The position numbers and the translations under genes were made by a program. The notes below the pieces were generated by a model. That model saw only the letters and a list, made by a program, of their open reading frames with translations, ran no database searches and was not told the origin of the DNA. A DNA stretch of 64,000 nucleotides from Cryobacterium tagatosivorans (GTDB taxonomy: Bacteria > Actinomycetota > Actinomycetes > Actinomycetales > Microbacteriaceae), in contig NZ_SOEZ01000018.1 in NCBI RefSeq assembly GCF_004402215.1, positions 483 through 64,482 of the forward strand, written 5' to 3'. The first letter of the stretch is position 1, and each line of letters opens with the position of its first letter. Shown piece after piece: positions 10,486 through 49,229 of this stretch.

Positions 10486-10494
10486 CCGGCGTGT

Positions 10495-30456: not shown

Positions 30457-30460
30457 TACA

Positions 30461-30494: not shown

Positions 30495-30529
30495 TCACCT
30501 GGGCACCGCTCCCGGCGTTCCGTCGTTGG

Positions 30530-30706
30530 CTACGGCCAAAGTCGCTTGCTGGCCAGCTCGGCGCCGTCCGTCAGGGTCTGGAGTTTGGCCACCGCGATCT
30601 GGGGGTGGATCCGTCCCCCGAGGCCGCGGTCCGTGGACGCGATGACGCGCTCCCGTCCGACGAGCGCGGCGAAACCCTGGATGCGGTCGGCGACGAGTTC
30701 CGCGGG
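30530..30706 (-). pseudogene. C-terminal remnant of a MetE-like (cobalamin-independent methionine synthase family) gene
   Basis: Directly after the thiolase stop codon, in the same frame, 58 sense codons read to the next stop (complement of 30530-30532) and encode a typical C-terminus of the UROD/MetE-like superfamily: FAALVGRERVIASTDRGLGG, then RIHPQIAVAKLQTL and AELASKRLW. Family members have DCG at this place, with the cysteine as a zinc ligand; here it is DRG. There is no start codon or N-terminal part: the rest of the gene would have to lie where the thiolase is. It is a relic left after a deletion or insertion at this spot. Confidence 0.75.
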
Positions 30707-32553: not shown

Positions 32554-32585
32554 GATTTCCTCCTTGAAGTTGTGGGTTGCTGCGG

Positions 32586-33302
32586 CTACGCGACGGCCGC
32601 GACCGGCCGCTGGCGAACGGTGCGCTGTTCGATGTCCTTGGGTCGGTTCCCGGCCAGGACCAGCCGCTGGACGTACAACCCCGGGGTCACGACGTGCTCC
32701 GGGTCGATGTCGCCCGGCTGCACGATTCGTTCGGCCTCGGCAACGGTGACGAGGCCGGCCGTGGCGACGATGGGGTTGAAATTGCGTGCGGTGTACCGGT
32801 AGACGAGGTTGCCGTCGGTGTCGGCCAGGTGCGCGCGCACGAGAGCGACATCGGCGACGATCCCGCGCTCCTGGATGTAGGTCACGCCGTCGAACTCCGC
32901 GTGCGGCTTGCCCTCGGCGATCAGGGTGCCGACACCGGTCTTGGTATAGAACGCGGGGATGCCGGCTCCGCCGGCGCGCAAACGCTCGGCGAGGGTGCCC
33001 TGGGGGCTGAATTCCACCTCGAGCGCTCCGGCCAGGAACTGCTCGGCGAACAACTTGTTCTCGCCCACGTAGGACGCGATCACCTTGCGCACCTGCCCGG
33101 CCTCGAGCAGCACTCCGAGACCCTTGCCGTCGATGCCCATGTTGTTGGACACCACCGTGAGATCCTGCACCCCGGATGCGCGCACGGCGTCGATCAGGTC
33201 CGCCGGGATTCCGCTCAGGCCGAAGCCGCCGACCGCCAGGACCATCCCGTCCCTGAGTGCGTTACCGAGCGCGTCGGCCGCGCTTGAATGAACCTTGGAC
33301 AC
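32586..33302 (-). CDS. scoA: 3-oxoacid CoA-transferase subunit A
   Basis: A 238-residue subunit [18 protein letters not shown] near residues 24-40 is the CoA-binding signature, followed by [19 protein letters not shown] and the [17 protein letters not shown] segment. GTG at 33302 follows GAGGAG at good spacing; the frame is open further upstream but has no other supported start. First gene of the scoA-scoB-thiolase operon, divergent from the IclR gene. No protocatechuate-pathway gene is near, so the substrate is more likely the 3-oxoacid made by the carboxylase genes across the regulator genes. Confidence 0.9.
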
Positions 33303-33353
33303 TGGATCTCCTCGTTGAGTCGTCGTGGTTGCACCGAAATGCGACGTCGCGTG

Positions 33354-33370
33354 TGTCCACTTTATGGACA
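33354..33370. promoter_or_regulatory. IclR-type operator upstream of scoA
   Basis: TGTCCA-CTTTA-TGGACA is a perfect inverted repeat with six-base arms. It lies 52 bases upstream of the scoA start. A near-identical copy is found just before the iclR start codon. Confidence 0.75.
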
Positions 33371-33385
33371 GTTGGTTTACAGTCA

Positions 33386-33415
33386 ATCGTATTCGCCCAA
33401 CGGAAGAACTGTCAA
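33386..33415 (-). promoter_or_regulatory. Promoter of the scoA-scoB-thiolase operon
   Basis: On the minus strand TTGACA (33415-33410) and TACGAT (33391-33386) are 18 bases apart. Transcription would start near 33379, placing the operator at 33354-33370 just downstream, where a bound regulator blocks elongation or promoter clearance. An alternative pair, TTGACT (33386-33381) with TAAAGT (33364-33359), would put the operator over the -10. Confidence 0.48.
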
Positions 33416-33472
33416 TGCCCGCGACTACAGCGCGTTGATTGCGCCCACGGGGCCGGGACGATATCGTAGAGC

Positions 33473-33489
33473 TATCCACATTATGGACA
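33473..33489. promoter_or_regulatory. IclR-type operator upstream of iclR
   Basis: TATCCA-CATTA-TGGACA is the same repeat as at 33354-33370 with one changed base in the left arm. It ends nine bases before the iclR ATG and touches the ribosome site AGGAGA, so the regulator probably controls its own gene. Confidence 0.72.
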
Positions 33490-33498
33490 GGAGAAATC

Positions 33499-34317
33499 AT
33501 GCTCGGTTTGTCGGGAACGCCCGCCGGTGGAAAGCCCGTGCAGGGCGCCCAGGTCGTCAGCAGGGTCGCGCTGCTCCTCCGGCTCGTCGGGCGGGACCCC
33601 AACGGATCCGCCCTGGCTGACATCGTGCGGGACTCCGGGCTGACCCGCCCGACGGTCTATCGCCTGCTGGGTTCGCTCGCCGCCGAGGGGCTCCTGGAAC
33701 TCGATCCGAAGAGCAACACCTGGCGCTATGGCCCGGAGATCTTCGTCATGGGCACCGTCGCCGCGCCGCGCTATCCGATCGAGGACCTCGCCCGGCCCTC
33801 CCTGCGCAGGCTCGCCGACGCGACCGAGGAAAGCGCCTTCCTTTCGGTCCGCCGCGGCAACGAAACGGTCTGCCTGCTGCGCGAGGAAGGCAGCTTCCCC
33901 ATCCGATCCTTCGTCCTGCACGAGGGCGTGCGGTTCCCGCTCGGTGTCGCCTCGGCGGGCATGGCCATCCTCGCCGCCCTGCCTGACTCCGAGGTGGACC
34001 AGCTGCTGCTGGATGCGGACCCGGCCTTTGTGCAACGGTGGGGCGAACAGAACTCCCCAGCAGCCATGCGCGCCGGCATCGAACGGACGAGGGCCGCCGG
34101 GTACGCCGTCAACCCCGGGATGATCGTCGAGGGCAGCTGGGGCATGGGCGCGGCCGTCTTCGACCCGGCCGGCCGGCCTGCGTGGGCATTGTCACTGACC
34201 GGCATCGAACCCCGCTTCCGGCCGGAACGACAGGAGCACCTGGGGCGACTCCTCGTCGAGGAGGCCCAGGCGATCACACGGAAATTGCGGCAGGACGAAT
34301 CCGCTCCCGCCCGCTGA
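33499..34317 (+). CDS. IclR-family transcriptional regulator of the CoA-transferase/thiolase operon
   Basis: A 272-residue IclR protein. The winged helix lies near residues 20-75 (LADIVRDSGLTRPTVYRLLG), and the effector domain spans ~90-265 (SLRRLADATEESAFLSVRRG and PLGVASAGMAILAAL). IclR members often control ring-cleavage, 3-oxoadipate or short-chain ketoacid pathways. ATG at 33499 has AGGAGA at good spacing. It is divergent from scoA, and two near-identical inverted repeats lie in the 196-base gap. A ketoacid or CoA intermediate of the pathway is a likely effector, by inference. Confidence 0.9.
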   Translation: MLGLSGTPAGGKPVQGAQVVSRVALLLRLVGRDPNGSALADIVRDSGLTRPTVYRLLGSLAAEGLLELDPKSNTWRYGPEIFVMGTVAAPRYPIEDLARPSLRRLADATEESAFLSVRRGNETVCLLREEGSFPIRSFVLHEGVRFPLGVASAGMAILAALPDSEVDQLLLDADPAFVQRWGEQNSPAAMRAGIERTRAAGYAVNPGMIVEGSWGMGAAVFDPAGRPAWALSLTGIEPRFRPERQEHLGRLLVEEAQAITRKLRQDESAPAR

Positions 34318-34328
34318 CCCGGCGCTCC

Positions 34329-36167
34329 CTACGCGGCGTCGATGCCGAAACTCTTGAGCTTGCGGTAGAGCGAGGACCTCGCGATTCCCAGCGCCGCCGC
34401 GGCGCGCACCCGATTGCCCTCTGCATCGTGGAGGGCCGCCACGATCATGTCCCGCTCCCCCGATTCCAGAACCGACAGGAGCCGGCTGGCACCGCTGTGG
34501 CAGTATCCCGGCAGATCCTCGGACTGGATCTCACCGACGGGCCGTTTGAGCAACGCCACCGCGAGCGCTTCTTCCAGCTCCCTGATATTCCGCGGCCAGG
34601 GGTAGCGGGAGATGACGCGCATCGCGGCGGGGCTCACCACGGCGCGGCGCCCCCCGGTCACGTTGGCGATGACGTGCGCCACGAGCAGGGGGAGGTCTTC
34701 AATCCGGTGCCGAAGCGGGGCCACCGTTACGGCCCTCGCGAAGTGCGGCAGGAGATCCCGGAAAGGAAGGCCGGAGCCAAGATCGGCGTCCGAGACGGTC
34801 GCGGCGATGGAGATTGGCCGGTCGCTGGCGGCAAGCCCGACCAGGAAGTCGTTCAGGCCGACGACGCCGTCGATGCTCAGCCGGTCGATGTTCGTGAAGA
34901 GGAAGAGCGTGGGATCGACCGTATCGGCCAGCGCACGCTCCGCATCCCGGATGCGTGGCCCATCCAGATCGGCCGACGCGAACACCATGGTGCGGCCGCC
35001 CGGCACGGCACTCCGGTAGAGATCGGCAATGAGCGAGCGCTTTCCACACCCGGCCTCACCCATGACGAGCAGGGCGACGTCATCGCGGAGTGCATCGGAG
35101 ATACCGCTGCAGGCCCGGTGCCACAGCAGCGAACGGCCATCGCCGGAGGCGACGGACAGGTCCGCGACGGCCGGCCCGGCTCCAAGGGAGGCCGGCTGTG
35201 TCTCGCCCGCGCGGTAGCTGCGACCGGATGCCCGATGCTCCAGGGATGCCGTCTCCGAGACGATCTGCACGGCCACGACGATCCCCGCGACATCATGACC
35301 GACGATGATCCGTGTTCCGCGGAGGTGAACGACCTTCCCGGACGACAGCTCGATCTGGTCGACGGGGTTGCTCTGTCCCATCATGAGATAGCGCGCGTGT
35401 TCATGAATCGTGCGCTGCTCGGACGGTTCGAAGAGGTTCTGCGCGACGGCATTGCCCATCACAATCGAACCGCCGATCGCCATCAGGGCGCCCCGCGTGC
35501 GGGAGTCCAGCCGGATGAAGGTGTCGAACAGGGCCTGCTGGCACTCGTTACGATCGACGAGCAGGTTGCGCTCGATGTCGTGTGCCGCCGACCTCACCAG
35601 GGAATGCATGAGCGGACTCGAATGCTCGGTCAGGCAGCTGATATCGAGCACGCCCTCGACCCGCCCGGTGGCAGGGTCGCGGATGGGGCTTCCCGCGCAG
35701 GCAAAAGGCTGCAGCTGTTCGTGGAAGTGCTCCGGGCCGACGATGTACAACGGTTGGCCTGACTCCAGCACCGTGCCAATGCCGTTGGTCCCGACCGATC
35801 CCTCGGCGTAGTTGAACCCCGGCGCCAGCGAGACCTTGTCCAGCAGGGTGCCGATGGTCCTGTCAGTCTCCGACCGGCTGAGAATCCTCGCCCGGTAGTC
35901 GGTGAGCACGATGCTCAGGGGCATTTCCGACATGTCATCGCTGAGCCGGGCGATGACCGGAGCGGCGCTGCGCATCAGGCGCCCGGTCAGGTCAAGGTCT
36001 TCGTGGTACGCGGCCTGCGACGTCGCGGCGTCGACTCCGGCCGAAAAGGAGCGTTGCCAGGATGCGGCGACGACCCCGGGCACTGTCGTGGACTCCGCCC
36101 GGCCTGACCGCAGAAAATCGGCCCGTGCAGTCGCGATCCTTGAACGCCGCTCGACGATTCCCGGCAT
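34329..36167 (-). CDS. AcoR-type Fis-family regulator with degenerate AAA+ domain
   Basis: A 612-residue regulator of the acetoin/ketone (AcoR) group. A GAF sensor spans ~80-200 (GFNYAEGSVGTNGIGTVLES). Walker A is MGEAGCGKRS near residues 369-378, and the Fis-type HTH ends the protein (GNRVRAAAALGIARSSLYRK). The sigma-54 contact motif GAFTGA is absent, and Walker B reads LFLFTNIDRL without the Asp-Glu pair, so ATP-driven sigma-54 remodelling is not possible; it must act as an ordinary sigma-A activator or repressor. ATG at 36167 has AAGGAG at ideal spacing. It is divergent from the carboxylase operon, with palindromes between. Confidence 0.88.
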   Translation of the reverse strand: MPGIVERRSRIATARADFLRSGRAESTTVPGVVAASWQRSFSAGVDAATSQAAYHEDLDLTGRLMRSAAPVIARLSDDMSEMPLSIVLTDYRARILSRSETDRTIGTLLDKVSLAPGFNYAEGSVGTNGIGTVLESGQPLYIVGPEHFHEQLQPFACAGSPIRDPATGRVEGVLDISCLTEHSSPLMHSLVRSAAHDIERNLLVDRNECQQALFDTFIRLDSRTRGALMAIGGSIVMGNAVAQNLFEPSEQRTIHEHARYLMMGQSNPVDQIELSSGKVVHLRGTRIIVGHDVAGIVVAVQIVSETASLEHRASGRSYRAGETQPASLGAGPAVADLSVASGDGRSLLWHRACSGISDALRDDVALLVMGEAGCGKRSLIADLYRSAVPGGRTMVFASADLDGPRIRDAERALADTVDPTLFLFTNIDRLSIDGVVGLNDFLVGLAASDRPISIAATVSDADLGSGLPFRDLLPHFARAVTVAPLRHRIEDLPLLVAHVIANVTGGRRAVVSPAAMRVISRYPWPRNIRELEEALAVALLKRPVGEIQSEDLPGYCHSGASRLLSVLESGERDMIVAALHDAEGNRVRAAAALGIARSSLYRKLKSFGIDAA

Positions 36168-36199
36168 ATCTACTCCTTTGTGGACCCTGCAAGCATGCG

Positions 36200-36247
36200 C
36201 TTCCAAGCTTGGGATCCGCTACACGAGACGTGTCCCAATCTGGGACA
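36200..36247. promoter_or_regulatory. Paired inverted repeats between the AcoR-type regulator and the carboxylase operon
   Basis: TGTCCCA-ATC-TGGGACA (36231-36247) is a perfect 17-base inverted repeat. A weaker copy with the pattern TCC-A---TGGGA lies at 36200-36216. The centres are 31 bases apart, about three helical turns, as expected for two dimers on one face. They are the best candidates for the AcoR-type regulator sites. Confidence 0.68.
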
Positions 36248-36336
36248 GGTCGCCGCGGAGGCCCGGAGCCACTCTTGGTTGGTGGCCCCGAAAGGGCCCC
36301 CACGGTCATTCACAAGACAGACGCAAAGGAGCGCTC

Positions 36337-38208
36337 ATGGAACGTTTGATCAACATCGACAATGGCGGAACACTCACGGACATCGTGGTCGGCAGCGGGA
36401 CGGATTTCACGTTCACGAAGACCCTGACCACCCCGGTCGACCTGTCACAGTGCCTCTTCGACGCGATGACGAAGGCGTCGGCGCAGCTCTTCGGCGAGGC
36501 CGACCTGGCCGGCCTGCTCCACTCCACCCGCCACATCCGCTACTCGTCCACCCAGGGCACCAACGCCCTGGTGGAGCGCAAGGGACCGCTGATCGGCCTG
36601 ATCACGGATGATCCCCAGCTCGTTAACGCGCTGCGCGCCTCGGAGGAGACCGCCGAACTCTGGGTCGACCTGATCGGCGCCCGCATCGAGGTCGTCTCCC
36701 CCGACGGCACGCCCGAGGAACTGGCCAGGGAGCTCGTCGCCGGGATCAACCGGTTGACGACGGCGGGAGCCGAACGACTGGTGGTCGCGGCAGCCAGCCT
36801 GGAACGCGAGCACCTGTACAAGCGCACCATGCTGAAGAACTTCCCCCGGCACCTCCTCGGCTCGGTGCCGATCCTCTTCTCCCGCGAATTCGCCGCGGAC
36901 ACGTCGCGGACGCGGCAGGTGTGGTCCGGCATCCTGAATTCCTTCCTGCACCCGACGGTGGAGCGTTTCCTCTACAGCGCGGAGCACCGGCTCCGGGCCT
37001 ACAAAGTCAAGAATCCCCTCCTGATCTACCGCAACGACGGCGCGTCCTCCCGGGTCGCGAAGTCGGTGGCCCTCAAGACGTACTCCTCTGGGCCTCGCGG
37101 CGGGTTGGAGGGCACTCGCGCCCTGGCCGAGGCCTACGGCCTGGCGAACGTGCTGATGATCGACGTCGGCGGCACGACCACCGATGTCGGGGCCGTGCAC
37201 GATTCAACGATCGCCGTTGACCGGCGCGGTTCGATCCAGGGCGTGGACATCTCCTATGAGATGAGCGATGTTCGTTCGACCGGCGTGGGCGGAAGCTCGA
37301 TCATCGCCGTACGTGACGGCGAAATCACGGTCGGCCCGGAGAGCGTCGGGGCCGCGCCCGGCCCGGCCTGCTTCGGATTCGGCGGAACGCAGGCCACCAT
37401 CACCGACGTCAACCTCCTGCTCGGAGTGCTGGATCCGGAGACGTACCTGGAGGGCGAGATGGCCCTGGACGCCGAACGCTCCCGCGCCGTCATCACCCGG
37501 ACCGTCGCGGAACCGCTCGGAATCAACCTCGAAGAGGCGCTGATCCTGATGGAGGACACCTACTCGCGCCGGCTGGCCCACGCGTTCGCGGACCTCGTCG
37601 ACCCGGCCGGTGACACGACCGTTGCCGCGTTCGGCGGCGGCGGGCCGATGAGCGCCTGCGGTGCGGCCCGGCTCGCCGATGTCCGCCACGTGCTCGTGCC
37701 TCGCCTGGCCGCCGTCTTCTCGGCATACGGGATCAGTTTCTCCGACATCGCGCAGTCCTACGAGAGCGACGTCACCGGCCTCGGCGCCGCGGCGATTGAC
37801 GCGGCGAAGCAGCGGATGGAGGCGTCTGCGGCCCGGGACATGTTCCAGGAGGGACACGACCTGAGCGAGTGCGACCTCGAGTGGACGTCCATCACTGAGG
37901 GCGAGGCTGAAATCCTGGCGCTCAAGGCGGTCTTCCGACTGCCGCACCCCACCTTCGACGGTAGCCTGCCCGCCGAGAACAGCGTCGCCGTGGCGAGCGG
38001 CACGCGGCAGGTGCGGTCCTCCGCGTCCCAGGTCGACACGGTGTCGGTCTACCGGCTCGACGATCAGGAACCGGGCGCCGCGGCATCCGGCCCGGCAATC
38101 GTCGAAGGCCCGTTCTTCACGGCCAGGGTACCCGCCGGCTGGCGCCTGAACATCTCGGCCGCCGGCGACCTCCTGCTCACCGACACTCACGGCCACCAGC
38201 ACCAGTAA
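36337..38208 (+). CDS. Ketone carboxylase subunit, HyuA type 1 (acetophenone/acetone carboxylase-like)
   Basis: A 623-residue protein of the hydantoinase A/5-oxoprolinase N-terminal superfamily (ASKHA-like ATPase). It has SSTQGTNALVERKGPLIGLI near residues 68-87, a second phosphate loop MIDVGGTTTDVGAV near 270-283, and GGGGPMSACGAA. The first loop is unusual: NIDNGGTLTDIVV, with Asn where most relatives have a hydrophobic residue before the GGT. ATG at 36337 follows AAGGAG. It is the first gene of a five-gene operon whose make-up equals acetophenone carboxylase. Its size (~66 kDa by length) fits the smaller HyuA-like subunit. Confidence 0.82.
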   Translation: MERLINIDNGGTLTDIVVGSGTDFTFTKTLTTPVDLSQCLFDAMTKASAQLFGEADLAGLLHSTRHIRYSSTQGTNALVERKGPLIGLITDDPQLVNALRASEETAELWVDLIGARIEVVSPDGTPEELARELVAGINRLTTAGAERLVVAAASLEREHLYKRTMLKNFPRHLLGSVPILFSREFAADTSRTRQVWSGILNSFLHPTVERFLYSAEHRLRAYKVKNPLLIYRNDGASSRVAKSVALKTYSSGPRGGLEGTRALAEAYGLANVLMIDVGGTTTDVGAVHDSTIAVDRRGSIQGVDISYEMSDVRSTGVGGSSIIAVRDGEITVGPESVGAAPGPACFGFGGTQATITDVNLLLGVLDPETYLEGEMALDAERSRAVITRTVAEPLGINLEEALILMEDTYSRRLAHAFADLVDPAGDTTVAAFGGGGPMSACGAARLADVRHVLVPRLAAVFSAYGISFSDIAQSYESDVTGLGAAAIDAAKQRMEASAARDMFQEGHDLSECDLEWTSITEGEAEILALKAVFRLPHPTFDGSLPAENSVAVASGTRQVRSSASQVDTVSVYRLDDQEPGAAASGPAIVEGPFFTARVPAGWRLNISAAGDLLLTDTHGHQHQ

Positions 38209-38259
38209 TCAGCAACTTCCCGTAACCCACTTTTGTTTCCCAAGGAAGGTAAAAACAAA

Positions 38260-38709
38260 ATGCGCGTCCCTATGACGGAATACCTCTTCATCGACCTCGA
38301 CACGGAGAGATGGATTTGCCGAGTCTGCGCCCACGACTTCGGTGACGCCCGCGGCAACTACAAGGAGGGGACGCTGGTCTACGACCGCGATCCCCGCGAG
38401 ATCCACCCGCCGGTGATCGACCCGGAGAAGTACGAATTCACTTTCTCCCCCGACCCCGCCTTCTGTCGCATCCTCGAGTTCTACTGCCCGACCTGCGGCA
38501 CCCAGATCGAAGCCGAGTACCTGCCGCCGGGGCATCCCCCGACCGTCGACATGCTCTGGGACATCGACTCGCTCCGCGAGAAATGGGAGGCCCGGGGCGA
38601 CAACCCCGAAGAAGTCGTCAACTACGGCCCAGGCGAAAACGCCGTCACGGACCTCAGCGCCCGCTTCGACTCCGTCGGCGGCCACACGCACGGAAAGGCA
38701 GGACACTGA
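38260..38709 (+). CDS. Small zinc-type subunit of the ketone carboxylase
   Basis: A 149-residue protein with two cysteine pairs, WICRVCAHDFG near residue 20 and FYCPTCGTQIEAE near residue 75, which together look like one four-cysteine zinc site. Small subunits of this type accompany acetone carboxylase (gamma) and acetophenone carboxylase (the ~15 kDa subunit). An acidic PEKYEFTFSPDPAFCRI stretch separates the pairs. ATG at 38260 has AAGGAAGG ten bases upstream. It starts 51 bases after the first HyuA-type gene and ends two bases before the second one, so it is made with them. Confidence 0.8.
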   Translation: MRVPMTEYLFIDLDTERWICRVCAHDFGDARGNYKEGTLVYDRDPREIHPPVIDPEKYEFTFSPDPAFCRILEFYCPTCGTQIEAEYLPPGHPPTVDMLWDIDSLREKWEARGDNPEEVVNYGPGENAVTDLSARFDSVGGHTHGKAGH

Positions 38710-38711
38710 CC

Positions 38712-40838
38712 ATGAAACGGATCTCCGTGGACATCGGTGGCACCTTCAGCGATTGCTTCTTCGTCTGGGATGACATCTACATCGAATCAAAGGCCCTGAC
38801 CACCCACCACAACCTGGCCCTGGGCTTCAACGAGGCCCTGGACCGGGCCTGCGGACGAGCCGGGATCTCCCGCGAAACGGCCCTCCGCGAGGTGGACTCG
38901 GTGCGCTACGCCACCACCCTCGGCACGAACGCCCTGATCGAGGGCAAGGGGCCCCGGGTGGCGGCCATCGTCACCCACGGCTTCGAGGACACGATCCCGC
39001 TGTCCCGGGGTCGCGGCTACGGTGAGGGCCTCGACGGCATCAAGCAGGGCGACATGCCCGATGCCCAGCGCCCGGATCCGCTGGTGCCGCGCCGCCTGAT
39101 CCGTTCGGTCAAGGAACGCATCGACTCGGTGGGCGAGGTGCTCGTGCCGCTCATGTACGACGACGTGCGCACCCAGGTGCGCGAGTTGGTGGACAACGGG
39201 GCCGAGGCCATCGTCATCGCGCTCACCAACGCGACCGAGAATTCGGTGCACGAGGACCGCATCCTGGAGATCATCCTGGAGGAGTACCCGACGCACGAAC
39301 TGGGTTCCATCCCGGTGCTCCTGAGCAGCCAGGTCTCCGGACGCAAGGGTGAGTACGTTCGGGCCATGGCCACGATCGTGGACGCATTCCTGCACGAAAC
39401 CATGTTCCACGCGCTCAACCAGCTCTCCAACAACCTGCGCGATTCCGGCTACAAGAAGCCCATGCTGGTCATCCACAATTCCGGCGGCATGGCGCAGCCC
39501 AACTCCACGGATGCGCTGCAGACGATCCACTCCGGTCCGATCGCCGGCGTCGGGGCGGCGCAGCACCTGTCCGAGTCGACCGGGCTCGGCGATGTGGTCT
39601 CGATGGACATGGGCGGAACGTCGTTCGACATCGGACTCGTGCCGGAGGGCGGCGTGCGGCACTACGACTTCCAGCCCACGATCGGGCGCTGGCTGGTGTC
39701 GGCGCCGATGATCCACCTCAACACCCTGGGAGCCGGCGGCGGGTCGATCGCCGCCTACAACCGCATCCACCACGCCATCCAGATCGGCCCCGAATCGGCC
39801 GGGTCGGACCCGGGACCGGCCTGCTACGACCGCGGCGGCCTACGCCCCACGGTCACGGACGCCGACCTGGTCCTGGGCTACCTCGACCCGGACAACTACG
39901 CCAACGGCCACATCCAGCTCAACAAGAAGCGTTCGCTGCACGTCATCGATGACACGCTCTCCGACGAGCTGGATCTCGACGCGGTCGAGGTGGCCAAGGT
40001 GATCAAGCGGACCGTGGACGAGCAGATGGCGATCGGCATCGAAAAGGAGCTGCGCTCCCGCGGCGGGCTCATCGAGGACTACACGATGCTCGCCTACGGC
40101 GGCAACGGCCCGCTGCACGCCTGCGGCATCGCGGCGAGCGCGGGGATCAGCCGCATCCTGTTCCCGCCGTTCGCGTCGGTGTTCTCGGCGCTGGGAGCCG
40201 GCAACATGCGGCCCCTGCACATCCACGAGCGCAGCGCCTATGTCGTGCTCTACGAGCCCCTGAAACGGAGCCTGTACAGCAAGTACGAGACGATGAACGG
40301 CTACATCGAGGAGCTGGAGGCCAAGGGCGCCGAAGACCTGGTTCGCCAGGGTTACGACCGCGGCGACGTGCGCTACCGGCTCGAGATGGACATGCGTTAC
40401 GGCAACCAGCTCGTGACCACGGCCGTCGCCTTCGACATCAACCGGGTCGACGGGGTGGCCGACGTGCTGCACCTGATCAAGACCTTCTCCGAGATCTTCG
40501 GCGAGCGCTACGGCGAGGGCACGCAGGCGCCCGAGGCGGGCATCCGGGTGCAGACGATCCGGGTGGCCTCCTACATCGAAGGCGAAGTCATCCAGTTCGA
40601 GTCCATCCACGCCGGCGGTGAGAAGACGAAGCCGGCGCCGGTGTCCCACCGTGAGGTGCACTTCACCAACATCAGCGGCGCCGTCGACACCCCGGTCTAC
40701 GACGCCGACGCGCTCAAGCACGAGTACGTCATCCACGGGCCGGCGATCGTCACCACCGAGAACACCACCTACCTGGTCGAACCGGGATGGCGGCTCGAAC
40801 CCACAGTGCAGGGGGCCGTGTGGCTGCTCAGCGACTGA
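38712..40838 (+). CDS. Ketone carboxylase subunit, HyuA type 2
   Basis: A 708-residue hydantoinase A/oxoprolinase-family protein. The first phosphate loop is canonical (SVDIGGTFSDCFFVWDD), then TTLGTNALIEGKGPRVAAIV, the second loop SMDMGGTSFDIGLV, GAGGGSIAAYN, and YGGNGPLHACGIAA. It has a C-terminal beta-rich domain (GPAIVTTENTTYLVEPGW) shared with N-methylhydantoinase/acetone carboxylase beta. It would bind ATP and activate bicarbonate and/or the ketone enol by phosphorylation. The contrast with the degenerate loop in the first HyuA-type protein suggests division of labour between two paralogues, as in acetophenone carboxylase. Confidence 0.87.
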   Translation: MKRISVDIGGTFSDCFFVWDDIYIESKALTTHHNLALGFNEALDRACGRAGISRETALREVDSVRYATTLGTNALIEGKGPRVAAIVTHGFEDTIPLSRGRGYGEGLDGIKQGDMPDAQRPDPLVPRRLIRSVKERIDSVGEVLVPLMYDDVRTQVRELVDNGAEAIVIALTNATENSVHEDRILEIILEEYPTHELGSIPVLLSSQVSGRKGEYVRAMATIVDAFLHETMFHALNQLSNNLRDSGYKKPMLVIHNSGGMAQPNSTDALQTIHSGPIAGVGAAQHLSESTGLGDVVSMDMGGTSFDIGLVPEGGVRHYDFQPTIGRWLVSAPMIHLNTLGAGGGSIAAYNRIHHAIQIGPESAGSDPGPACYDRGGLRPTVTDADLVLGYLDPDNYANGHIQLNKKRSLHVIDDTLSDELDLDAVEVAKVIKRTVDEQMAIGIEKELRSRGGLIEDYTMLAYGGNGPLHACGIAASAGISRILFPPFASVFSALGAGNMRPLHIHERSAYVVLYEPLKRSLYSKYETMNGYIEELEAKGAEDLVRQGYDRGDVRYRLEMDMRYGNQLVTTAVAFDINRVDGVADVLHLIKTFSEIFGERYGEGTQAPEAGIRVQTIRVASYIEGEVIQFESIHAGGEKTKPAPVSHREVHFTNISGAVDTPVYDADALKHEYVIHGPAIVTTENTTYLVEPGWRLEPTVQGAVWLLSD

Positions 40839-40890
40839 CCACCCCTCACACCATTTCTTCAGCACGCGCAAGCAAAGGAGCTTGAGAACA

Positions 40891-43224
40891 ATGACAATGA
40901 CAACCAGCGAGTTTGTGCCCACCGGCGGAAACGACGAAGAATCCCAGCTGCTCACCAACCAGGAGCAGCAGTGGGTCGACAAGTTCATGGACGAGACGAC
41001 GCTCTTCCTCGGCCCGGATCCGGCCATCATGCGGCATCACGAGATCATGCCGCGCAGCAAGTACGAAGAGGAATGCATCGCACAGGGCGTCGACCCTCTC
41101 GAGATCGACCGGATCCGCAAGCGCCTGGCCGGCGCTTTGGATGAGGCCTTCGAAATGTGCGAGAGCATGGGCGCCGCGCCCGGCGCGAAGTGGGCCGACC
41201 TGTCCTGCGCCGTCTACACGGCGGAGGGTGACGTCACCTACCTGTCCAACCGCGGGGTCATCGCCTTCTCCGCGGTGCTGCACCACCCCATCCGCTACAT
41301 CATGAAGAACTGGAAGGACGAGCCGACCGTCGGCATCAACGAAGGCGACGGATTCTTCCACAACGATTCACGCTTCGGCATGGTGCACAACACGGACCAG
41401 TCCATGCTCGTGCCCGTGATCCGCGGCGGAATCATCATCGCCTGGGTGGGCGCGACCATCCATGAGGGCGAAAACGGCGCCTGCGAGCCCGGCGGCATGC
41501 CGTCCGGTTCGGAATCGCCCTTCGACGACGGCCTTCGGGCGTCCCCGATCAAGATCGTCGAGCGGGGGCACCTGCGTCGCGACCTGCTGACCTTCCTGCA
41601 GCACTCGACGCGGGATCCGAAGCTGATGCTCGCCGACATCAAGGTGAAGATGGGCGCCGTGCGGCGCATCATGGACACCGTCGACCGCCTCATCGACGAG
41701 GTCGGCCAGGAGACCTTCGTGGCCTCCCTGCGCGTGACGGTCGAGGATGTCGAGACCGAGGTGCGTCGTCGCATCGGCGAGCTGCCCGACGGCACGGTGA
41801 CGTTCAACCAGTTTGTCGACTCGACCCTCAAAGAGAACATCCTGATCAAGTTCGCCTGCAAGATCACCATCAAGGGCGAGCGGATGATCGTTGACCTCAC
41901 CGGCACCGGCCCCGAGATCCTCAACCGGGCCATCAACTCGCCGCTGGCATCGACGAAGTCCTTCATGGCCCAAGCGATCCTGTCGTACTGGTGGCCCGAT
42001 CTCCCCCGCAGCACGGGGGCGCTCTCGCCCATCGAGGTCATCACCGAGGAACACAGCTGGGCCGATGCCGGCTACGACGCCCCGGTCGGCCAGTCGCTCC
42101 AGGCATCATTCCGTGGGTTCTCGGCGCTCCAGACCGCCTTCGCGAAGATGCAGTTCTCCTCCCCGCAGAAATACTCCAACGTCGTGGCCCCCTGGTTCAA
42201 CCAGATCAACGACTTCCTCTGGGGCGGCACGACGCAGAACGGCGAGCAGGTGGGCAACCTCTGCGCCGACCTCAACGGCATGGGCGGTGGGGCGAAGGCC
42301 TTCCGCGACGGAGAGGATGCGGTCGCCCCGCTGTTCTGCGCCATGGCCGACATCGGCGAGCAGGAGGTCATGGAGGAGGAAGTTCCGTTCCTCCAGCTGG
42401 TGAGCAAGCGGCTCGTCCGCGACAACCAGGGCTTCGGTAAATTCCGCGGCGGCATGGGCTACGAAATGATCGTCGCCTCTCGCGGCACGCCGAGCTGGGG
42501 CTTCATGACCGTCACCTCCGGGTCGAAGTTCTCGTCGGTGCCCGGCATGTTCGGCGGCTACGGCTGCCCGGTCTATCCGCTGGCGATCGTCAAGGGCATC
42601 AACATCTACGACATCATCCAGAAGGACCCCACCCAGTTCGACCTGTCGATCGAACGCGTCATGAACGAGCAGCCCTTCGAGGGAGGCGACTACCAGTCCG
42701 CGCACATGGGACTGCAGTTCGACGTGGCGAAGGAAGGCGAGTTGTACATGATCGCCCAGGGCGCCGGCGGCGGCTACGGCGACGTGCTGGAACGTGACCC
42801 GGAACTCGTGGTGACCGACCTGGAACTGGACCGGATCTCCGCCCAGGTCGCCACGAACATCTACGGGATCGTCTGGGAACCGGAGACCTACGTCGTGCAC
42901 GAGCAGGCGACCATCGAGCTCCGGGCCCAGATCCGCCGGGACCGGATCGCCCGCGGCAAGCCGTACCACGAGTTCGTCGCGGAGTTCGTGCAAGAGGAGC
43001 CCCCGAAGGACCTGCTCTACTACGGGTCATGGGGGCAGGACAATGACGAGGAACTCATTGCGACGCACTGGGGCGGCCTGGAGCCCGAGCGGGTCACCGG
43101 CAAGCTTGGCGAACTGCCGCTGATCATGGTCCCCGATCGCCGGGTGCTGAAGATCGCCCGTCTCGAGGAGCGCGTGCGCGAACTCGAGCAGAAGTACGGC
43201 GAAACGGTCGTGCACAAGTCCTGA
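40891..43224 (+). CDS. Ketone carboxylase subunit, HyuB type
   Basis: A 777-residue hydantoinase B/oxoprolinase-family protein, close in size to acetone carboxylase alpha and to the large Apc subunit. Family segments include GDGFFHNDSRFGMVHNTDQS, then GATIHEGENGACEPGGMP, FRGFSALQTAFAK, and KFRGGMGYEMIVASRG; the histidines of the first two are where the metal site of acetone carboxylase lies. The C-terminus is a coiled-coil-like LEERVRELEQKYGE. ATG at 40891 follows AAAGGAG by ten bases; ATG at 40897 is an alternative. It follows the second HyuA-type gene by 52 bases. Confidence 0.88.
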   Translation: MTMTTSEFVPTGGNDEESQLLTNQEQQWVDKFMDETTLFLGPDPAIMRHHEIMPRSKYEEECIAQGVDPLEIDRIRKRLAGALDEAFEMCESMGAAPGAKWADLSCAVYTAEGDVTYLSNRGVIAFSAVLHHPIRYIMKNWKDEPTVGINEGDGFFHNDSRFGMVHNTDQSMLVPVIRGGIIIAWVGATIHEGENGACEPGGMPSGSESPFDDGLRASPIKIVERGHLRRDLLTFLQHSTRDPKLMLADIKVKMGAVRRIMDTVDRLIDEVGQETFVASLRVTVEDVETEVRRRIGELPDGTVTFNQFVDSTLKENILIKFACKITIKGERMIVDLTGTGPEILNRAINSPLASTKSFMAQAILSYWWPDLPRSTGALSPIEVITEEHSWADAGYDAPVGQSLQASFRGFSALQTAFAKMQFSSPQKYSNVVAPWFNQINDFLWGGTTQNGEQVGNLCADLNGMGGGAKAFRDGEDAVAPLFCAMADIGEQEVMEEEVPFLQLVSKRLVRDNQGFGKFRGGMGYEMIVASRGTPSWGFMTVTSGSKFSSVPGMFGGYGCPVYPLAIVKGINIYDIIQKDPTQFDLSIERVMNEQPFEGGDYQSAHMGLQFDVAKEGELYMIAQGAGGGYGDVLERDPELVVTDLELDRISAQVATNIYGIVWEPETYVVHEQATIELRAQIRRDRIARGKPYHEFVAEFVQEEPPKDLLYYGSWGQDNDEELIATHWGGLEPERVTGKLGELPLIMVPDRRVLKIARLEERVRELEQKYGETVVHKS

Positions 43225-43251
43225 GCCCCGCTCTCGTTGCCCCACGCCGGT

Positions 43252-43293
43252 GCGGGGCCTTCCTGTCGACAACCGTCGGCAGGAAGGCCCCGC
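43252..43293 (+). terminator. Strong stem-loop between the HyuB-type gene and the last operon gene
   Basis: GCGGGGCCTTCCTG and CAGGAAGGCCCCGC form a perfect 14-base-pair stem. The 14-base loop contains CGAC/GTCG that can pair further. No U-run follows, and the last operon gene starts 32 bases later. It may be a partial terminator or an mRNA-end stabiliser that lowers expression of the last gene. Confidence 0.6.
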
Positions 43294-43325
43294 CTTCCCG
43301 CACCAATTCTCGTGAAGGAACAATC

Positions 43326-44135
43326 GTGACCACCTCGCTTACCGCCGTCATCGCCCGGCCGCCGTCCGGCCGCACCAGGGCCGTCCTGATCGACAGCCAT
43401 GACTACGCACAGACCGTCATCCTCCAGGGCAAACCAGTCCCCTGGCAGGAGCCGATGGCCTACTCGAACTTCTTCGGCCAGGCGCAGGGACTGCTGAAGT
43501 CCGACGTTGCCCTGCTCAGCCTGGACCGGTTCTACGCGCACCGACTCGACGGCAACCCCGGCCTGGCCACGGCGATGGGCGCCAAGACCCGCACCGGATA
43601 CGCCCTCCGCACCCTGCTCGGCGACGCCGATACGACCCGGGCCGTGATCGACTTCGCCGCGATCTTCAGCAAGACCCAGCGCGAGCCGGTCGTGCTGCAG
43701 ATCCCCTCGCCGATGCAGTGGCTCGCCCGCACCCACGCCTTCTCCGGCGCCTCCGATGTCTCCGACCTCGACGCGGATGACGCCGAAAACGCATCCATGT
43801 ATGTGGCGGACTGGCTCCGAGGCTTTGCTGCGCTGCCGCTGGCGGCGGTGTTGCTCGACGACAGACCCGGGGCGAGCGACCCCGTCACCGTGCCGGTACC
43901 CCTCGACACGTACTCCCCCATCGCCAACGTCACCGACCACTACCAATGGACGCTCGGTATGCGGCACGCCGGCGGGATCGAGCTCAAGGGAACCGCCGCC
44001 TCAGGATCCCTCATCCAACCCGAGTTCTGGTTCGATGACGATCAAACGCCGCCGGCCGGCGACTTCCTACTGGGAGAGATCCCGGCAGCGGCCGTCCCCG
44101 AGGATGTCCTGGCCCGAATCTCGACGCTGATGTGA
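43326..44135 (+). CDS. Protein of unknown function in the position of acetophenone carboxylase epsilon (ApcE)
   Basis: A 269-residue soluble protein with no domain I can name, no signal peptide and no membrane segment. Acidic and aromatic residues are frequent (PLDTYSPIANVTDHYQWTL, EFWFDDDQTPPAGDFLLGEI). GTG at 43326 follows AAGGAA. It is the fifth gene of the carboxylase operon, separated by a strong stem-loop. Acetophenone carboxylase has, besides its four-subunit core, a fifth ~34 kDa subunit needed for activity and loosely bound. Position and size make this gene the candidate counterpart; I cannot confirm it by sequence. Confidence 0.6.
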   Translation: MTTSLTAVIARPPSGRTRAVLIDSHDYAQTVILQGKPVPWQEPMAYSNFFGQAQGLLKSDVALLSLDRFYAHRLDGNPGLATAMGAKTRTGYALRTLLGDADTTRAVIDFAAIFSKTQREPVVLQIPSPMQWLARTHAFSGASDVSDLDADDAENASMYVADWLRGFAALPLAAVLLDDRPGASDPVTVPVPLDTYSPIANVTDHYQWTLGMRHAGGIELKGTAASGSLIQPEFWFDDDQTPPAGDFLLGEIPAAAVPEDVLARISTLM

Positions 44136-44155
44136 GTGTTGCCCGGCGGCAACAC

Positions 44156-44479
44156 CTAGCCGCGATCCACTCGTCTCCTGGCAGCGATAGCGTTCGTGAG
44201 TTGATCCAGCGTGGGGAGCCCGGCCAGACCGTTGGGCGTGGCATAGAGGCGGCACGCCAGGTCGACAATGCGCTCGGCGCCGGGGAAGATGTCGACGCCG
44301 TCCAGGACCAGGGTGGGCGATCCGGCATAGGGGAAGTTTTCCGCGTCCTGCGGCGTCCGGATCTCCCGAGAACCGATCTCCACGTCAGGATGCCCGGTCG
44401 CGATGAGCGCCTGGCGCACCATCCGCCCAGCCTGCTCCCAGTTCGGACAGTCAGCCGTGTGCCGGATCTCGACCCTCAT
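44156..44479 (-). CDS. Small thioredoxin-fold protein
   Basis: A 107-residue protein with a CPNW motif near residue 11 after a short strand (VEIRHTADCPNW), then helices and FPYAGSPTLVLDGVDIFPG, where Ser-Pro is in the place of the cis-proline loop of thioredoxin folds. Only one cysteine of the CxxC is present, so redox shuffling by a disulfide pair is unlikely. Proteins like this are often labelled thioredoxin family or alkylmercury-lyase-like. ATG at 44479 lacks a clear ribosome site. Function unknown. It is convergent with the carboxylase operon. Confidence 0.72.
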   Translation of the reverse strand: MRVEIRHTADCPNWEQAGRMVRQALIATGHPDVEIGSREIRTPQDAENFPYAGSPTLVLDGVDIFPGAERIVDLACRLYATPNGLAGLPTLDQLTNAIAARRRVDRG

Positions 44480-44522
44480 ACGGCCATTATTCGACACGCG
44501 CGGTGCATCAGCCAGCTCGCAC

Positions 44523-46538
44523 TCAGCGCCAGTCGATCGACACGACGGGTGTCGGCTCTGAGATTCCCTTGAGCTCCAGGGTGCGACGTCCGGTCTCGCC
44601 GAACGAGCGCCTGCTGCCCGACAGGCTCGATTCACTGACCAGGATCTCGGACCCGGAGGCTGCCGCCGCGATCCGGGCGGCGATGTTGACGCCCGTGCCC
44701 GAGTAGTCCGAGGCGAGTCGCGTTGCCTCGGCGGCGTGGATACCGACCCGGATCGACGGAGCGAAACCCTGGGTGTCGCGTTGCCGGGCCAGGCGGCGCT
44801 GGAGGGCGATCATCGCCTCGATCGCGCGGTCCGTGTCGTCGAAGGCGAGGAAGAAACCGTCGCCAATCTCCTTGACCTCCTCCCCGCCGTGCTCCGCCAC
44901 GACCGATCGCACCGCCTGATCGTGCCAGCGCATGAGCTTTCCCCAGGCGTCGTCGCCGAGCAGTTCGCCCAACTTTGTCGAGTCGACGATGTCGGTGAAG
45001 GCGAACGTCTTCAGCTGGCGGGCGTCCGGGTGCCTCGGCGCGCCGCCGTCCTCGCCGCCGAGGGAGGCAAGAAGCTCTCGGGCCCTCGCCAAGTCGATGA
45101 GGGCCCCGAGGCGCTCGAATGTGTCGGCCGCGGCCCGCAGCTCGACCGCGGCTCGGTCCGCACTGGCGTTCGCCGCGTACGCCTGGGCCAGCACCATCCG
45201 CGCCCGCGCTGCCTCGTGCGGCGCCTCCAGTCTGGTCCACGCGTCGACGGCGGTGCGAAGGGACACCTCGGCCGCCGGCGCGTCGCCCGAGGCCAGCTGG
45301 AACATCCCGCGCGCGCTGGCGACGCCGGCGCCGATCGCCTGGCTGCCGAACCGGCCGGCGAGTGCCCCGAGCTCATCGACGGCCGCGCTCGCAGTTGCGA
45401 GGTCTTTCGCCGCCAGGGCGATCTCGATCTGGGCCCGCAGCAGGGGCATCCGCATCAGCGGCGTGTCCGGCGGCGCGTCCCAGGTCGTCGTTCTCGGCGG
45501 GTCCTCGAGGGCGCGTCGAATGGACGCCGCCGCGACTGCGGGGCGTCCCTGTGCGAGGCGCAGCAGCGAGAACGCCGGTTCGGTCTTCGTGCCGCGGGCG
45601 TGCGCCTGCGTCAGGACCTCCTCTGCCGCCTCCAGGTCGCCACGCTGGAGGCGAATCGCACCGATCCGGTAGAGCGCCAGTGCGGCCGCGGCGGGAATGA
45701 AGTTCTCGAGTTCGATCGATGCCCGGCGCGCCTCGGCCTCAGCTTCCAGCCACTGGCCTCGCAGCTGCTTGATCTCGGATCGATAGAGGCGGCACATGCC
45801 CGGGAACCCGCTGATGCCCTCCCGTTTGCACCAGCGATCCTGCGCCTCGGTCCACTCGGCCGCGCGTCGCCACTCGCCCAGGCTCGCGCACGTGCCGATG
45901 GTGGTGCAGCAGATTCCGCCTGCCGTGCCCGGCTCGAGCTCACCGGCGACCGCGGCCACGCTGGACTCGTCGACCAGGGCGAGCCCTTCGTCGACATGAC
46001 CCTGGTTGACCAGCGCGAACCCGCGTTCCGCCTGGGCCATCGCCGCAATGTCGCGATCCCCGAGTCGCCGCCCGATCTCCTCGGCCAGGGTCGCCGCCGC
46101 GAGTGCGGTCTCGATGTCGCCGACCATGGCGGCGCGGAACGAACGCACGATCGCGAGCCAGCCATGCCCGGCGTTTTCCGGCACGCTCTCGAGCAATCGC
46201 TCGGCGCGGCGGGCCCAGGCGGCCGACATCGAATCGGCAGCCCGGTAGACATTGTCACGCGCCAGGGCGATCGCCGCCCTGGCGGCGACCGCGGGCTGGT
46301 TGGCCTTCATCGCGGCGGCATAGCTGCGTTCGCGGACCTCGATCGCCAGGGGCAGCTGACCCGTCCACCACGCCGCCGTCGCCAGGAGCTCGAGGTCGCC
46401 CGCATCCAGCTGGCCCTGGGCGTCGGCCGTGGCCAGCTGCTCGAGTGCCTCCCCCCACGCATGGCGCGCAAGCGCGGCGCGGCCCTGCTCAACCAGGGTG
46501 GGCGCCGCAGGCGCCGGTGAAGATGACTTGGTCGCCAT
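44523..46538 (-). CDS. TPR-repeat protein with C-terminal class III adenylate cyclase domain
   Basis: A 671-residue protein. Residues ~10-480 are alanine-rich helical repeats of TPR type (for example LEQLATADAQGQLDAGDLEL). Residues ~500-670 are a class III cyclase domain with FTDIVDSTKLGELLGD (first metal Asp), VKEIGDGFFLAFDD (second metal Asp plus the adenine-selecting Lys) and SDYSGTGVNIAARI (transition-state Arg). All catalytic residues appear present, so it should make cAMP. No membrane segment is seen; the repeats likely bind a protein partner or peptide. ATG at 46538 is chosen as the first start after the divergent neighbour's region. No neighbour suggests its signal. Confidence 0.87.
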   Translation of the reverse strand: MATKSSSPAPAAPTLVEQGRAALARHAWGEALEQLATADAQGQLDAGDLELLATAAWWTGQLPLAIEVRERSYAAAMKANQPAVAARAAIALARDNVYRAADSMSAAWARRAERLLESVPENAGHGWLAIVRSFRAAMVGDIETALAAATLAEEIGRRLGDRDIAAMAQAERGFALVNQGHVDEGLALVDESSVAAVAGELEPGTAGGICCTTIGTCASLGEWRRAAEWTEAQDRWCKREGISGFPGMCRLYRSEIKQLRGQWLEAEAEARRASIELENFIPAAAALALYRIGAIRLQRGDLEAAEEVLTQAHARGTKTEPAFSLLRLAQGRPAVAAASIRRALEDPPRTTTWDAPPDTPLMRMPLLRAQIEIALAAKDLATASAAVDELGALAGRFGSQAIGAGVASARGMFQLASGDAPAAEVSLRTAVDAWTRLEAPHEAARARMVLAQAYAANASADRAAVELRAAADTFERLGALIDLARARELLASLGGEDGGAPRHPDARQLKTFAFTDIVDSTKLGELLGDDAWGKLMRWHDQAVRSVVAEHGGEEVKEIGDGFFLAFDDTDRAIEAMIALQRRLARQRDTQGFAPSIRVGIHAAEATRLASDYSGTGVNIAARIAAAASGSEILVSESSLSGSRRSFGETGRRTLELKGISEPTPVVSIDWR

Positions 46539-47726: not shown

Positions 47727-49229
47727 CTAGCCGACGCGCGCCAGGACCGGATCCGCGATATCTGCAACAACCCAGGCACTGGCACGAACCAGTTGCGAGA
47801 CGGTCAGCGTGTCGGCCCGAACGTACTTGTACACGAAGTCCGAACCGAACGATCCGAATCCGCTCTCGGTCTTGAACGGCCCCGTCGGCGCTCCCGGGTC
47901 TCCGAGCACTGCGTCCAGCCCATCGAAAGAGAACAGATCCGGATGCCGTCGCGCAAAGGCGAACCGCTCGGCCTTCTTCTCCAAGGAGGTGCCGAAGATG
48001 TGCGGTGTGATCGCGAAGCGACGGAACTGCCCATCCTGGAGTTGCCATCCGACTCGAATCTGGTGGCCCTCCCGCTCGATCCCGGTTTCCCACGTGACCA
48101 GAGGCTTGCCGTGGGAGACATCGGCTTCCGCGGCGTCTGCGAATTGGAGATTCGAGCCCACCAGGGCGGCCAGTCGGAAAGCGCGCATTTTCTTCAATGC
48201 AGTCCGAGTTTGCGACGAGGCGATAGGCGCCAACTCGTCCTCATCGAGCCAGACATGCTCATCGGACTCAGGGCCCTGGACGGACGTTGACTCGATGAGC
48301 GCACTCAGGAGACGCACGATGCTGGAGTATCGACGCATCGTCTCCACCTCATAAGACCTTGTTGCGCCTTCCAGGGCCTCGTCCAGACGGTCTGCGAGGC
48401 TGTCGTAGCTCAGGTGTCGCCATCCGTTCGGGGTGAAACTCACCGGCTTCCCCTCGATCTCACGCAACTCCGTCTCGGGAGCAATCATGCTGAGAATGCA
48501 GAGCTCAGGCGCCGATCCTTTCCACTTCACAACCTTTTCCGCATACCGGTCAAGCTGCTCGAGCGCGGGCAAGGAGAAGACCTTGTTCTCGATGACGAGT
48601 GGCGCGAAGCCCGGCCAGTTGAACACCAAATCGAGGTTCTGCCGTTCGCGGTCGACGGAACGTCCTTCTCCATCGCCTGGTAGTGCGAGCGGCTGGAACA
48701 CTCGATCGGCGATGTCCGGCAACGCTTCAAAGAACCACGCCAGGAGGTTGGTGTGGAACAGTTCGCGCTGGCCGAACATGATCCGCGCGAGCGGTTCCGC
48801 GTTGAGGTCGGCAGCGATCTTCGCAACGTCGGCCGACACAGCCGCGGGGACGCCGTCAAGGAACAAGCGAACAGGATTGGCCGCACCACGCGATGGAGCG
48901 ATTCGTTTCACACTCGTGCCGACGACCTCGAGGTCACGTGCCGGCACACCGTTGAACCCCCATCGTTTCTCTTCGCCGAGCCGCTGCGACGGAAACCAGG
49001 ATTCCACGCGGTAGGCGCCGCGCACGATCCCACCGGCTACTCCGAGGACATACTGGGCCCGCTCACGAGAGCCCTTGGCGATCCGCCAGTTTCCGCGGGT
49101 GGCCTCGTATACGGCGGCGTCATCGTCGCCCTCACGCCAGGCCCTATTGATCACCACCATGATGGTTGGGGCGTCAATTGACGGGATTGGGACGTCGCCG
49201 ACCCACGAACCCGATTCGTCGCTGAGCAC
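47727..49229 (-). CDS. PD-(D/E)XK nuclease-like protein with PUA/EVE-like N-terminal domain
   Basis: A 500-residue protein. Residues ~145-330 hold a PD-(D/E)XK_4-type nuclease core: GQRELFHTNLLAWFFE (Glu156), NLDLVFNWPG (Asp200) and VIENKVFSLP (Glu214, Lys216), then a QLDRYAEKV helix. Residues ~20-95 form a separate domain with VYEATRGNWRIAKGSRE, then YVLGVAGGIVRGAYRVESW and RWGFNG, a layout resembling PUA/EVE/ASCH readers of modified bases; this second call is tentative. GTG at 49229 follows GGAGGG. Such fusions are typical of modification-dependent restriction, but no methylase or helicase gene is adjacent. Confidence 0.68.
   Translation of the reverse strand: MLSDESGSWVGDVPIPSIDAPTIMVVINRAWREGDDDAAVYEATRGNWRIAKGSRERAQYVLGVAGGIVRGAYRVESWFPSQRLGEEKRWGFNGVPARDLEVVGTSVKRIAPSRGAANPVRLFLDGVPAAVSADVAKIAADLNAEPLARIMFGQRELFHTNLLAWFFEALPDIADRVFQPLALPGDGEGRSVDRERQNLDLVFNWPGFAPLVIENKVFSLPALEQLDRYAEKVVKWKGSAPELCILSMIAPETELREIEGKPVSFTPNGWRHLSYDSLADRLDEALEGATRSYEVETMRRYSSIVRLLSALIESTSVQGPESDEHVWLDEDELAPIASSQTRTALKKMRAFRLAALVGSNLQFADAAEADVSHGKPLVTWETGIEREGHQIRVGWQLQDGQFRRFAITPHIFGTSLEKKAERFAFARRHPDLFSFDGLDAVLGDPGAPTGPFKTESGFGSFGSDFVYKYVRADTLTVSQLVRASAWVVADIADPVLARVG

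Follow-up and report, generated by a model that had tools for sequence, protein, structure and literature searches.

Two types of ATP-dependent ketone carboxylase are the closest described relatives of the operon studied here. Acetone carboxylase (Acx) has three subunits only (PMC5214803), and acetophenone carboxylase (Apc) of Aromatoleum aromaticum has five (ApcABCDE). By 2017, the Apc branch comprised one characterised enzyme, whose essential epsilon subunit was called elusive in the same paper. Apc-like clusters in actinobacteria are not new as such, since one was annotated earlier in Rhodococcus ruber Chol-4 (PMC6498646, annotation passage). Here we describe a five-gene operon of this kind in a 64,000-nucleotide (nt) stretch from Cryobacterium tagatosivorans (contig NZ_SOEZ01000018.1), which in its full length is called the window in the following. 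With good confidence, we assign the operon to the five-subunit, ATP-dependent ketone carboxylases of the Apc type, as regards enzyme class and general mechanism, and sequence comparison suggests that the enzyme very probably acts on a small ketone. New are the fold assignment of the epsilon subunit, a uniform pocket in the alpha subunit, and an RNA hairpin between the last two genes.

Gene content and family placement of the operon

The operon (positions 36337-44135 of the window) consists of five genes on the plus strand, called A to E below, none of which contains internal stops. They are separated by gaps of 51 (A-B), 2 (B-C), 52 (C-D) and 101 nt (D-E), as calculated from their coordinates (Table 1), and follow the gene order of apcABCDE. 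Pfam searches assigned A and C to Hydantoinase_A (9.5e-55 and 1.7e-72), D to Hydantoinase_B (6.3e-85) and B to Acetone_carb_G (1.3e-38). Protein B carries two CxxC pairs (C20xxC23 and C76xxC79), and its four cysteines are kept in 39/39 chosen actinobacterial rows. A first-pass annotation of the sequence alone had described two HyuA-type proteins, one HyuB-type protein, a small protein and an unrecognised 269-residue protein, and had concluded that this content fits a five-subunit enzyme. Coordinates and Pfam matches agree with these sizes and types, E belongs to no Pfam family at E<=0.001, and the apcABCDE order recurs in related loci.

Searching the PDB with phmmer, we found the best match of all four core subunits in Apc (5l9w), ahead of Acx and hydantoinases. 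The values were 1.4e-80 for A (ApcA), 7.5e-33 for B (ApcB; Acx gamma, 8.7e-9), 3.9e-143 for C (ApcC; Acx, 5.3e-83) and 4.2e-80 for D (ApcD; Acx, 9.8e-41). The sequence motifs show the same distribution as in Apc. A contains the ASKHA (ATP) motifs and, like ApcA, no R/KERiDsxG fingerprint; C has the ATP motifs together with the fingerprint KERIDSVG, which thus marks alpha and not alpha'. The D/H/D/H site is retained in D (D95, H158, D161, H183).

To identify related loci, named genomes were scanned with an alignment of B, yielding 452 relatives among 493 stretches, of which the best 80 loci were kept. The order A-B-C-D-E recurs among them, and therefore the operon is not a chance arrangement. 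E is longer than 240 amino acids (aa) in 67/80 loci, and in 10/80 loci the sequence stops in front of or shortly behind D, or even sooner, which is too early to judge E. According to the record titles, the group comprises Rhodococcus, Gordonia, Mycolicibacterium, Cryobacterium, some Proteobacteria and one Bacillus. The window genome itself, a 3.78-Mb draft of 97.8% completeness, yielded no second ketone carboxylase: it has a single gamma-type gene and a single full-length D, the other D match having 28% identity over residues 101-662 only.

Several records deserve a comment. Two Apc-like operons have extra room between B and C (L129, ~9912-10727; L128, ~6532-7389), and the frame located there in L129 shows weak similarity to E (E-value 0.002). 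Near-identical operons occur under the titles Gordonia paraffinivorans (L051) and Mycolicibacterium agri (L077), pointing to recent transfer, mislabelling or contamination. The operon on a 9.7-kb contig titled Marinobacter (L037) branches with Rhodococcus loci, by transfer or contamination. For L043, whose record title reads Rhodococcus sp. IEGM 1409, the taxonomy of the tree tool gives a cyanobacterial family, a labelling mismatch, and gene A is split into two overlapping frames in L075 (6060-7972), due to a frameshift or an assembly error.

Phylogenetic analysis was performed with quick trees, with support from the Shimodaira-Hasegawa-like approximate likelihood ratio test (SH-aLRT), flagging of long branches, and one HyuA or HyuB protein of the window genome as root. 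In the D tree (77 rows, own HyuB as root), 67 D proteins including that of the window form one group (99), which is joined at 99 by Apc together with L128/L129 (81), leaving Acx outside. The A/C tree (76 rows) unites all A subunits in one clade (SH-aLRT 99), within which the group of the window A pairs with ApcA (SH-aLRT 96). This suggests that the second alpha subunit, alpha', was inherited in common. Neither of these quick, long-branched trees places the window proteins with Acx.

Gene E is predicted to encode the epsilon subunit

With E as query, NCBIfam returned no family at E<=0.001. No chain in the PDB reached E<=10, and a profile search against PDB chains returned only two matches at chance level (0.032 and 0.61). 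The structure model of E has a predicted local distance difference test (pLDDT) score of 96.1. In a Foldseek search with this model only two matches reached E<=0.001, and both were ApcE chains. The fold is a barrel of the uroporphyrinogen decarboxylase (URO-D) type; this likeness is one of fold alone, as no Pfam URO-D family matched at E<=1. Judged from the model, E is the likely epsilon subunit, with the fold of ApcE. Its conserved residues include R89, Y159, N201 and H205. A large related group thus appears to keep the Apc parts with an epsilon that is recognisable by its fold only.

Weighing the enzyme class

A number of results weigh against an Apc-type enzyme. All NCBIfam scores for ApcA-D were far under the cut-offs (319.5, 137.1, 526.9 and 294.5 bits versus 1250, 250, 1500 and 1500), that is, from one fifth to just above half of them. 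In the A/C tree, the window C joins the C proteins of L128/L129 (80) and then the A clade (91), while ApcC lies outside, unresolved beside Acx; the same L128/L129 are placed with Apc in the D tree (81). These trees are quick, contain flagged long branches and depend on a single own HyuA or HyuB root. Three polar residues have been named for the site that binds bicarbonate in ApcA (PMC5214803, passage); A keeps one of them (D274, here D276) and has changes at the other two (E248 to S250, K281 to D283). For E, a profile comparison with ApcE (51 versus 4 rows) gave a probability of 0.3%, so that a tie at the sequence level is absent, and URO-Ds scored no lower than ApcE in VIA-align. Finally, E was not recognisable in three of the 80 loci (L078, L079, L083), despite at least 5 kb of sequence behind D.

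The placement of C, the changed residues of A and the loci without E leave our confidence in the class as it is, because the assignment rests mainly on the gene set, the top database hits, subunits D and A, and the fold that E shares with ApcE. The first-pass annotation had proposed an ATP-dependent ketone carboxylase, to be checked by phylogeny and by fitting a model of the fifth protein to ApcE. Here, the best matches, the D and A trees, which join Apc to the exclusion of Acx, and the ApcE fold of E speak for the proposal, and C, which does not join ApcC, departs from it.

Transferring the division of labour from the Apc model, we suggest that C (alpha) would phosphorylate a methyl ketone in its enol form and A (alpha') bicarbonate, the latter role being taken over with caution since two of the three named ApcA residues are changed. 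D and B would form the scaffold, and E (epsilon), with its URO-D-fold barrel, would join the core and finish the carboxylation, yielding a beta-keto acid. This product could then pass, in the window, to the adjoining 3-oxoacid coenzyme A (CoA)-transferase and thiolase.

A recurrent RNA hairpin between D and E

The 101-nt gap between D and E (43225-43325) has a folding energy of -51.4 kcal/mol and forms a stem of 19 bp (z = -6.4), and none of 200 dinucleotide-shuffled sequences was as low. We surveyed 58 loci in which D and E are 40-200 nt apart, all actinobacterial except the one titled Marinobacter; they are not independent, as 16 of them, including the window, are from Cryobacterium. Among these, z was below -2 in 52/58 D-E gaps (median -4.6), and a perfect stem of at least 9 bp was present in 40/58. 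The other gaps of the operons reached z below -2 in 2/75 cases together (A-B, 2/42; B-C, 0/2; C-D, 0/31).

Ten Cryobacterium D-E gaps could be aligned, in which 95.9% of 194 cells were paired, a figure favoured by the structure being drawn from one of the ten sequences. Compensatory changes on both sides were found at 5/20 pairs, a value reached in 1/500 shuffles, and slid versions gave 0 to 2. Further pair types were not unusual (59/500 shuffles). Not all loci share this arrangement: instead of a gap, there is a 4-nt overlap between the two genes in L082, L086-L089, L132 and L134, and likewise in the actinobacterial L071, and they are more than 1.2 kb apart in L048 and L064.

A pattern scan of positions 36000-44400 detected neither a sigma-70-type promoter nor a U-tailed terminator at the hairpin. 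An Rfam search of 30000-46000 returned a single match, which lay outside the operon and scored far under the cut-off. The stem ends 32 nt before the start codon of E, and with this spacing and the lack of a promoter pattern E is probably read through. We see about an even chance that the hairpin lowers the message for E relative to the core, in which case less of it would reach E; alternatively, it may protect the core message at its 3' end. A lower dosage of E would fit a detachable epsilon, as in Apc, and the recurrence of the hairpin hints at a dosing of enzyme parts. A literature search on hairpins and subunit dosage found no paper.

The substrate pocket and the metabolic neighbourhood

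The acetophenone pocket of ApcC has been assigned seven residues (PMC5214803, passage). Five of them differ in C (L81 to T72, F281 to I272, N282 to H273, Q344 to H335 and T345 to L336), and two are kept. The five changed residues are identical in 39/39 chosen actinobacterial rows, counting that of the window, and 11/11 other rows also have T72, H273 and L336. Compared with Acx, C likewise differs at 5/7 pocket positions. Such a uniform pocket suggests one common substrate.

A clue to this substrate comes from the surroundings of the operon. In 17/50 non-Cryobacterium actinobacterial loci (window excluded), a CoA-transferase pair is located no more than 8.5 kb away, often directly after E, although two of the 17, L051 and L077, represent nearly one operon. 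About 2% would be expected by chance, as roughly estimated from the own 3.78-Mb genome, which has such pairs at four places. In a canonical Acx locus (L138), too, a CoA-transferase follows directly behind. This adjacency fits acetoacetate or 3-oxopentanoate as the product and hence acetone or butanone as the substrate. We regard a short aliphatic ketone, acetone or butanone, as somewhat better than an even bet. The first-pass annotation had suggested a ketone that may be neither acetone nor acetophenone: the pocket, differing from those of both Apc and Acx, agrees with this, whereas the CoA-transferase and thiolase fit a product such as acetoacetate and leave acetone a leading candidate. Should acetone or butanone be the substrate, actinobacteria would possess a second way of carboxylating common volatile ketones at the expense of ATP.

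Within Cryobacterium, the neighbourhood speaks against these two ketones. A CoA-transferase or thiolase lies alongside in 0/15 other loci of the genus (one of which, L013, has 3.5 kb upstream only). Across 57 genomes of the genus, a co-occurrence of thiolase and operon was tested and failed, the thiolase being present in 10/20 genomes with the operon and 16/37 without it, and among the ten genomes with both, they are adjacent in the window genome only. We also dropped neighbouring genes as a direct substrate label: a zinc alcohol dehydrogenase and acyl-CoA ligases are each seen repeatedly, in 9 loci apiece, but their matches name no substrate.

The Cryobacterium enzyme could take another, more complex ketone, with the CoA-transferase/thiolase block serving a different pathway (e.g., beta-ketoadipate-like) and standing next to the operon by accident, an explanation that concerns the substrate and not the enzyme class. 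It accounts for the missing adjacency and the lack of tracking in the genus, and the IclR regulator and the CoA-transferase proteins match families with Pca members. However, the block adjoins the operon in identical order and directions in L025 and also in L057, a Pseudoclavibacter locus whose D has 71% identity. In distant genera scoAB comes after E, and the best family of the thiolase is PRK07516, with PcaF absent among the 25 families listed. We consider this explanation less likely than acetone or butanone.

That the operon encodes a true acetophenone (aryl ketone) carboxylase, shared with or acquired by actinobacteria, is improbable. Its identical five-gene order and identical epsilon fold are what such an enzyme would have, but of the residues expected of acetophenone carboxylase proper only 2/7 in the pocket and 1/3 at the bicarbonate site are kept, with the pocket changes fixed in all chosen actinobacterial rows; the low NCBIfam scores point the same way, and the adjoining genes encode a CoA-transferase and a thiolase, whereas the Apc operon has a benzoylacetate-CoA ligase (PMC4729919, passage). 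Less probable still is a hydrolase of cyclic amides that uses ATP (hydantoinase, oxoprolinase or lactamase) and has accessory subunits, which would explain the Hydantoinase_A and Hydantoinase_B domains, the below-cut-off matches to the caprolactamase models CapA and CapB and, for A, the ranking of PDB oxoprolinase and N-methylhydantoinase above Acx, but for A, C and D alike the corresponding Apc subunit ranks above these two, and hydantoinases and oxoprolinases have two subunits (hydAB; PMC5214803, passage), to which the window adds a gamma, a second alpha and an epsilon.

Regulators and other genes in the window

Regulator, CoA-transferase and thiolase genes stand directly upstream of the operon in the window (30707-36167; Table 1). 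A divergent regulator adjoins the operon in 40/51 actinobacterial loci (window included) and in 15/15 Cryobacterium loci. It retains the GAF, lid and Fis-type helix-turn-helix (HTH) parts, and its AAA part has lost the GAFTGA loop, which is present in 0/57 frames of this regulator family among the related loci, window included. A search with PF04552 did not find sigma-54 in the window genome; the same search was positive in 4/14 control genomes. DhaR has been argued to work without sigma-54 (PMC3162934, passage), and by analogy the regulator presumably does so as well.

Two further genes lie outside the operon: a phenol-hydroxylase-like flavin adenine dinucleotide (FAD) monooxygenase (8596-10485, plus strand; PF01494 and PF07976) and a protein with a match to a PD-(D/E)XK nuclease domain (47727-49229, minus strand; 7.5e-6).

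Table 1 Features of the operon and its surroundings, in coordinates of the window
Feature	Position	Strand	Details and evidence
Gene A, HyuA-type, ApcA/alpha' counterpart, proposed bicarbonate kinase	36337-38208	+	623 aa; phmmer best PDB match 5l9w ApcA
Gene B, four-Cys gamma subunit, ApcB counterpart	38260-38709	+	149 aa; 5l9w ApcB match
Gene C, HyuA-type, ApcC/alpha counterpart, proposed ketone kinase	38712-40838	+	708 aa; 5l9w ApcC match, KERIDSVG fingerprint, ATP motifs
Gene D, HyuB-type, ApcD/beta counterpart	40891-43224	+	777 aa; 5l9w ApcD match, D/H/D/H residues
D-E RNA hairpin, 19-bp stem 43252-43270 / 43275-43293	43252-43293	+	Folding, recurrence, covariation
Gene E, predicted epsilon subunit, ApcE-like by fold, URO-D-type barrel	43326-44135	+	269 aa; GTG start; structure model
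Short perfect hairpin directly 3' of E, possible operon end	44136-44155	+	Read in sequence, folded
AcoR/DhaR-like regulator, GAF / degenerate AAA / Fis-HTH, divergent, without GAFTGA loop	34329-36167	-	Pfam/NCBIfam
IclR-family regulator	33499-34317	+	Family matches
3-oxoacid CoA-transferase subunit A (PcaI/ScoA family)	32586-33302	-	TIGR02429 above cut-off
3-oxoacid CoA-transferase subunit B (PcaJ/ScoB family)	31897-32553	-	TIGR02428 above cut-off
Thiolase, PRK07516 family	30707-31900	-	NF005704, 609 bits (cut-off 412)

Comparison with known systems

Taken together, the results allow a wider but doubtful proposal, namely that Apc-type epsilons are recruited URO-D-fold barrels, that the barrel and not the HyuA/HyuB core is the meeting site of enol phosphate and activated CO2, that the hairpin holds epsilon below the core in actinobacteria, and that the clade is an unrecognised five-subunit acetone/butanone carboxylase. 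If its barrel part were true, a decarboxylase fold would be run as a carboxylase. URO-D superfamily members share 8-13% identity with E in the URO-D rows of the comparison.

Published mentions of related enzymes include the abstract of PMC11737030, which contains the term acetophenone carboxylase, and PMC5059922, on Frankia, which mentions acetone carboxylase. The literature, mostly at the level of listings and passages, gave no description of an acetone carboxylase with five subunits from actinobacteria. An acetone carboxylase of Rhodococcus rhodochrous B276 is reportedly the subject of a paper from 1999, which could be about the enzyme described here.

The cluster of R. ruber Chol-4, apc1-4 plus fisR, labelled 'acetophenone carboxylase (anaerobic)' (PMC6498646), is very probably an operon of the same kind, and the related locus titled R. 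ruber NBRC 15591 (L058) shows A-B-C-D-E plus the regulator. The passage on the Chol-4 cluster is annotation only; it names four subunits and mentions no epsilon, substrate test or hairpin.

Acx (5m45, 5svb) shares with the window the HyuA/HyuB/gamma architecture, the E/D-H-D-H site in its HyuB subunit, and possibly the product. It differs in its order HyuA-HyuB-gamma, without alpha' or epsilon, where the window has five genes, in an identity of 25-33% (Acx taken from L136), and in its position outside the group of Apc and window in the D tree.

The closest system is ApcABCDE of Aromatoleum aromaticum (5l9w, 9fou; PMC5214803, passages), with which the window shares the gene order, two HyuA-type subunits, one HyuB-type subunit, the four-Cys small subunit, the epsilon fold, the ATP motifs and the alpha fingerprint. 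A, C and D are 30-36% identical to their Apc counterparts and B 54%, and D exceeds ApcD by 93 aa and shows an extended C-terminus in the alignment. The window operon is set apart from Apc by its alpha pocket, by two of the three named alpha' residues, by an epsilon unrecognisable by sequence, by different neighbours and by the hairpin that precedes its epsilon gene.

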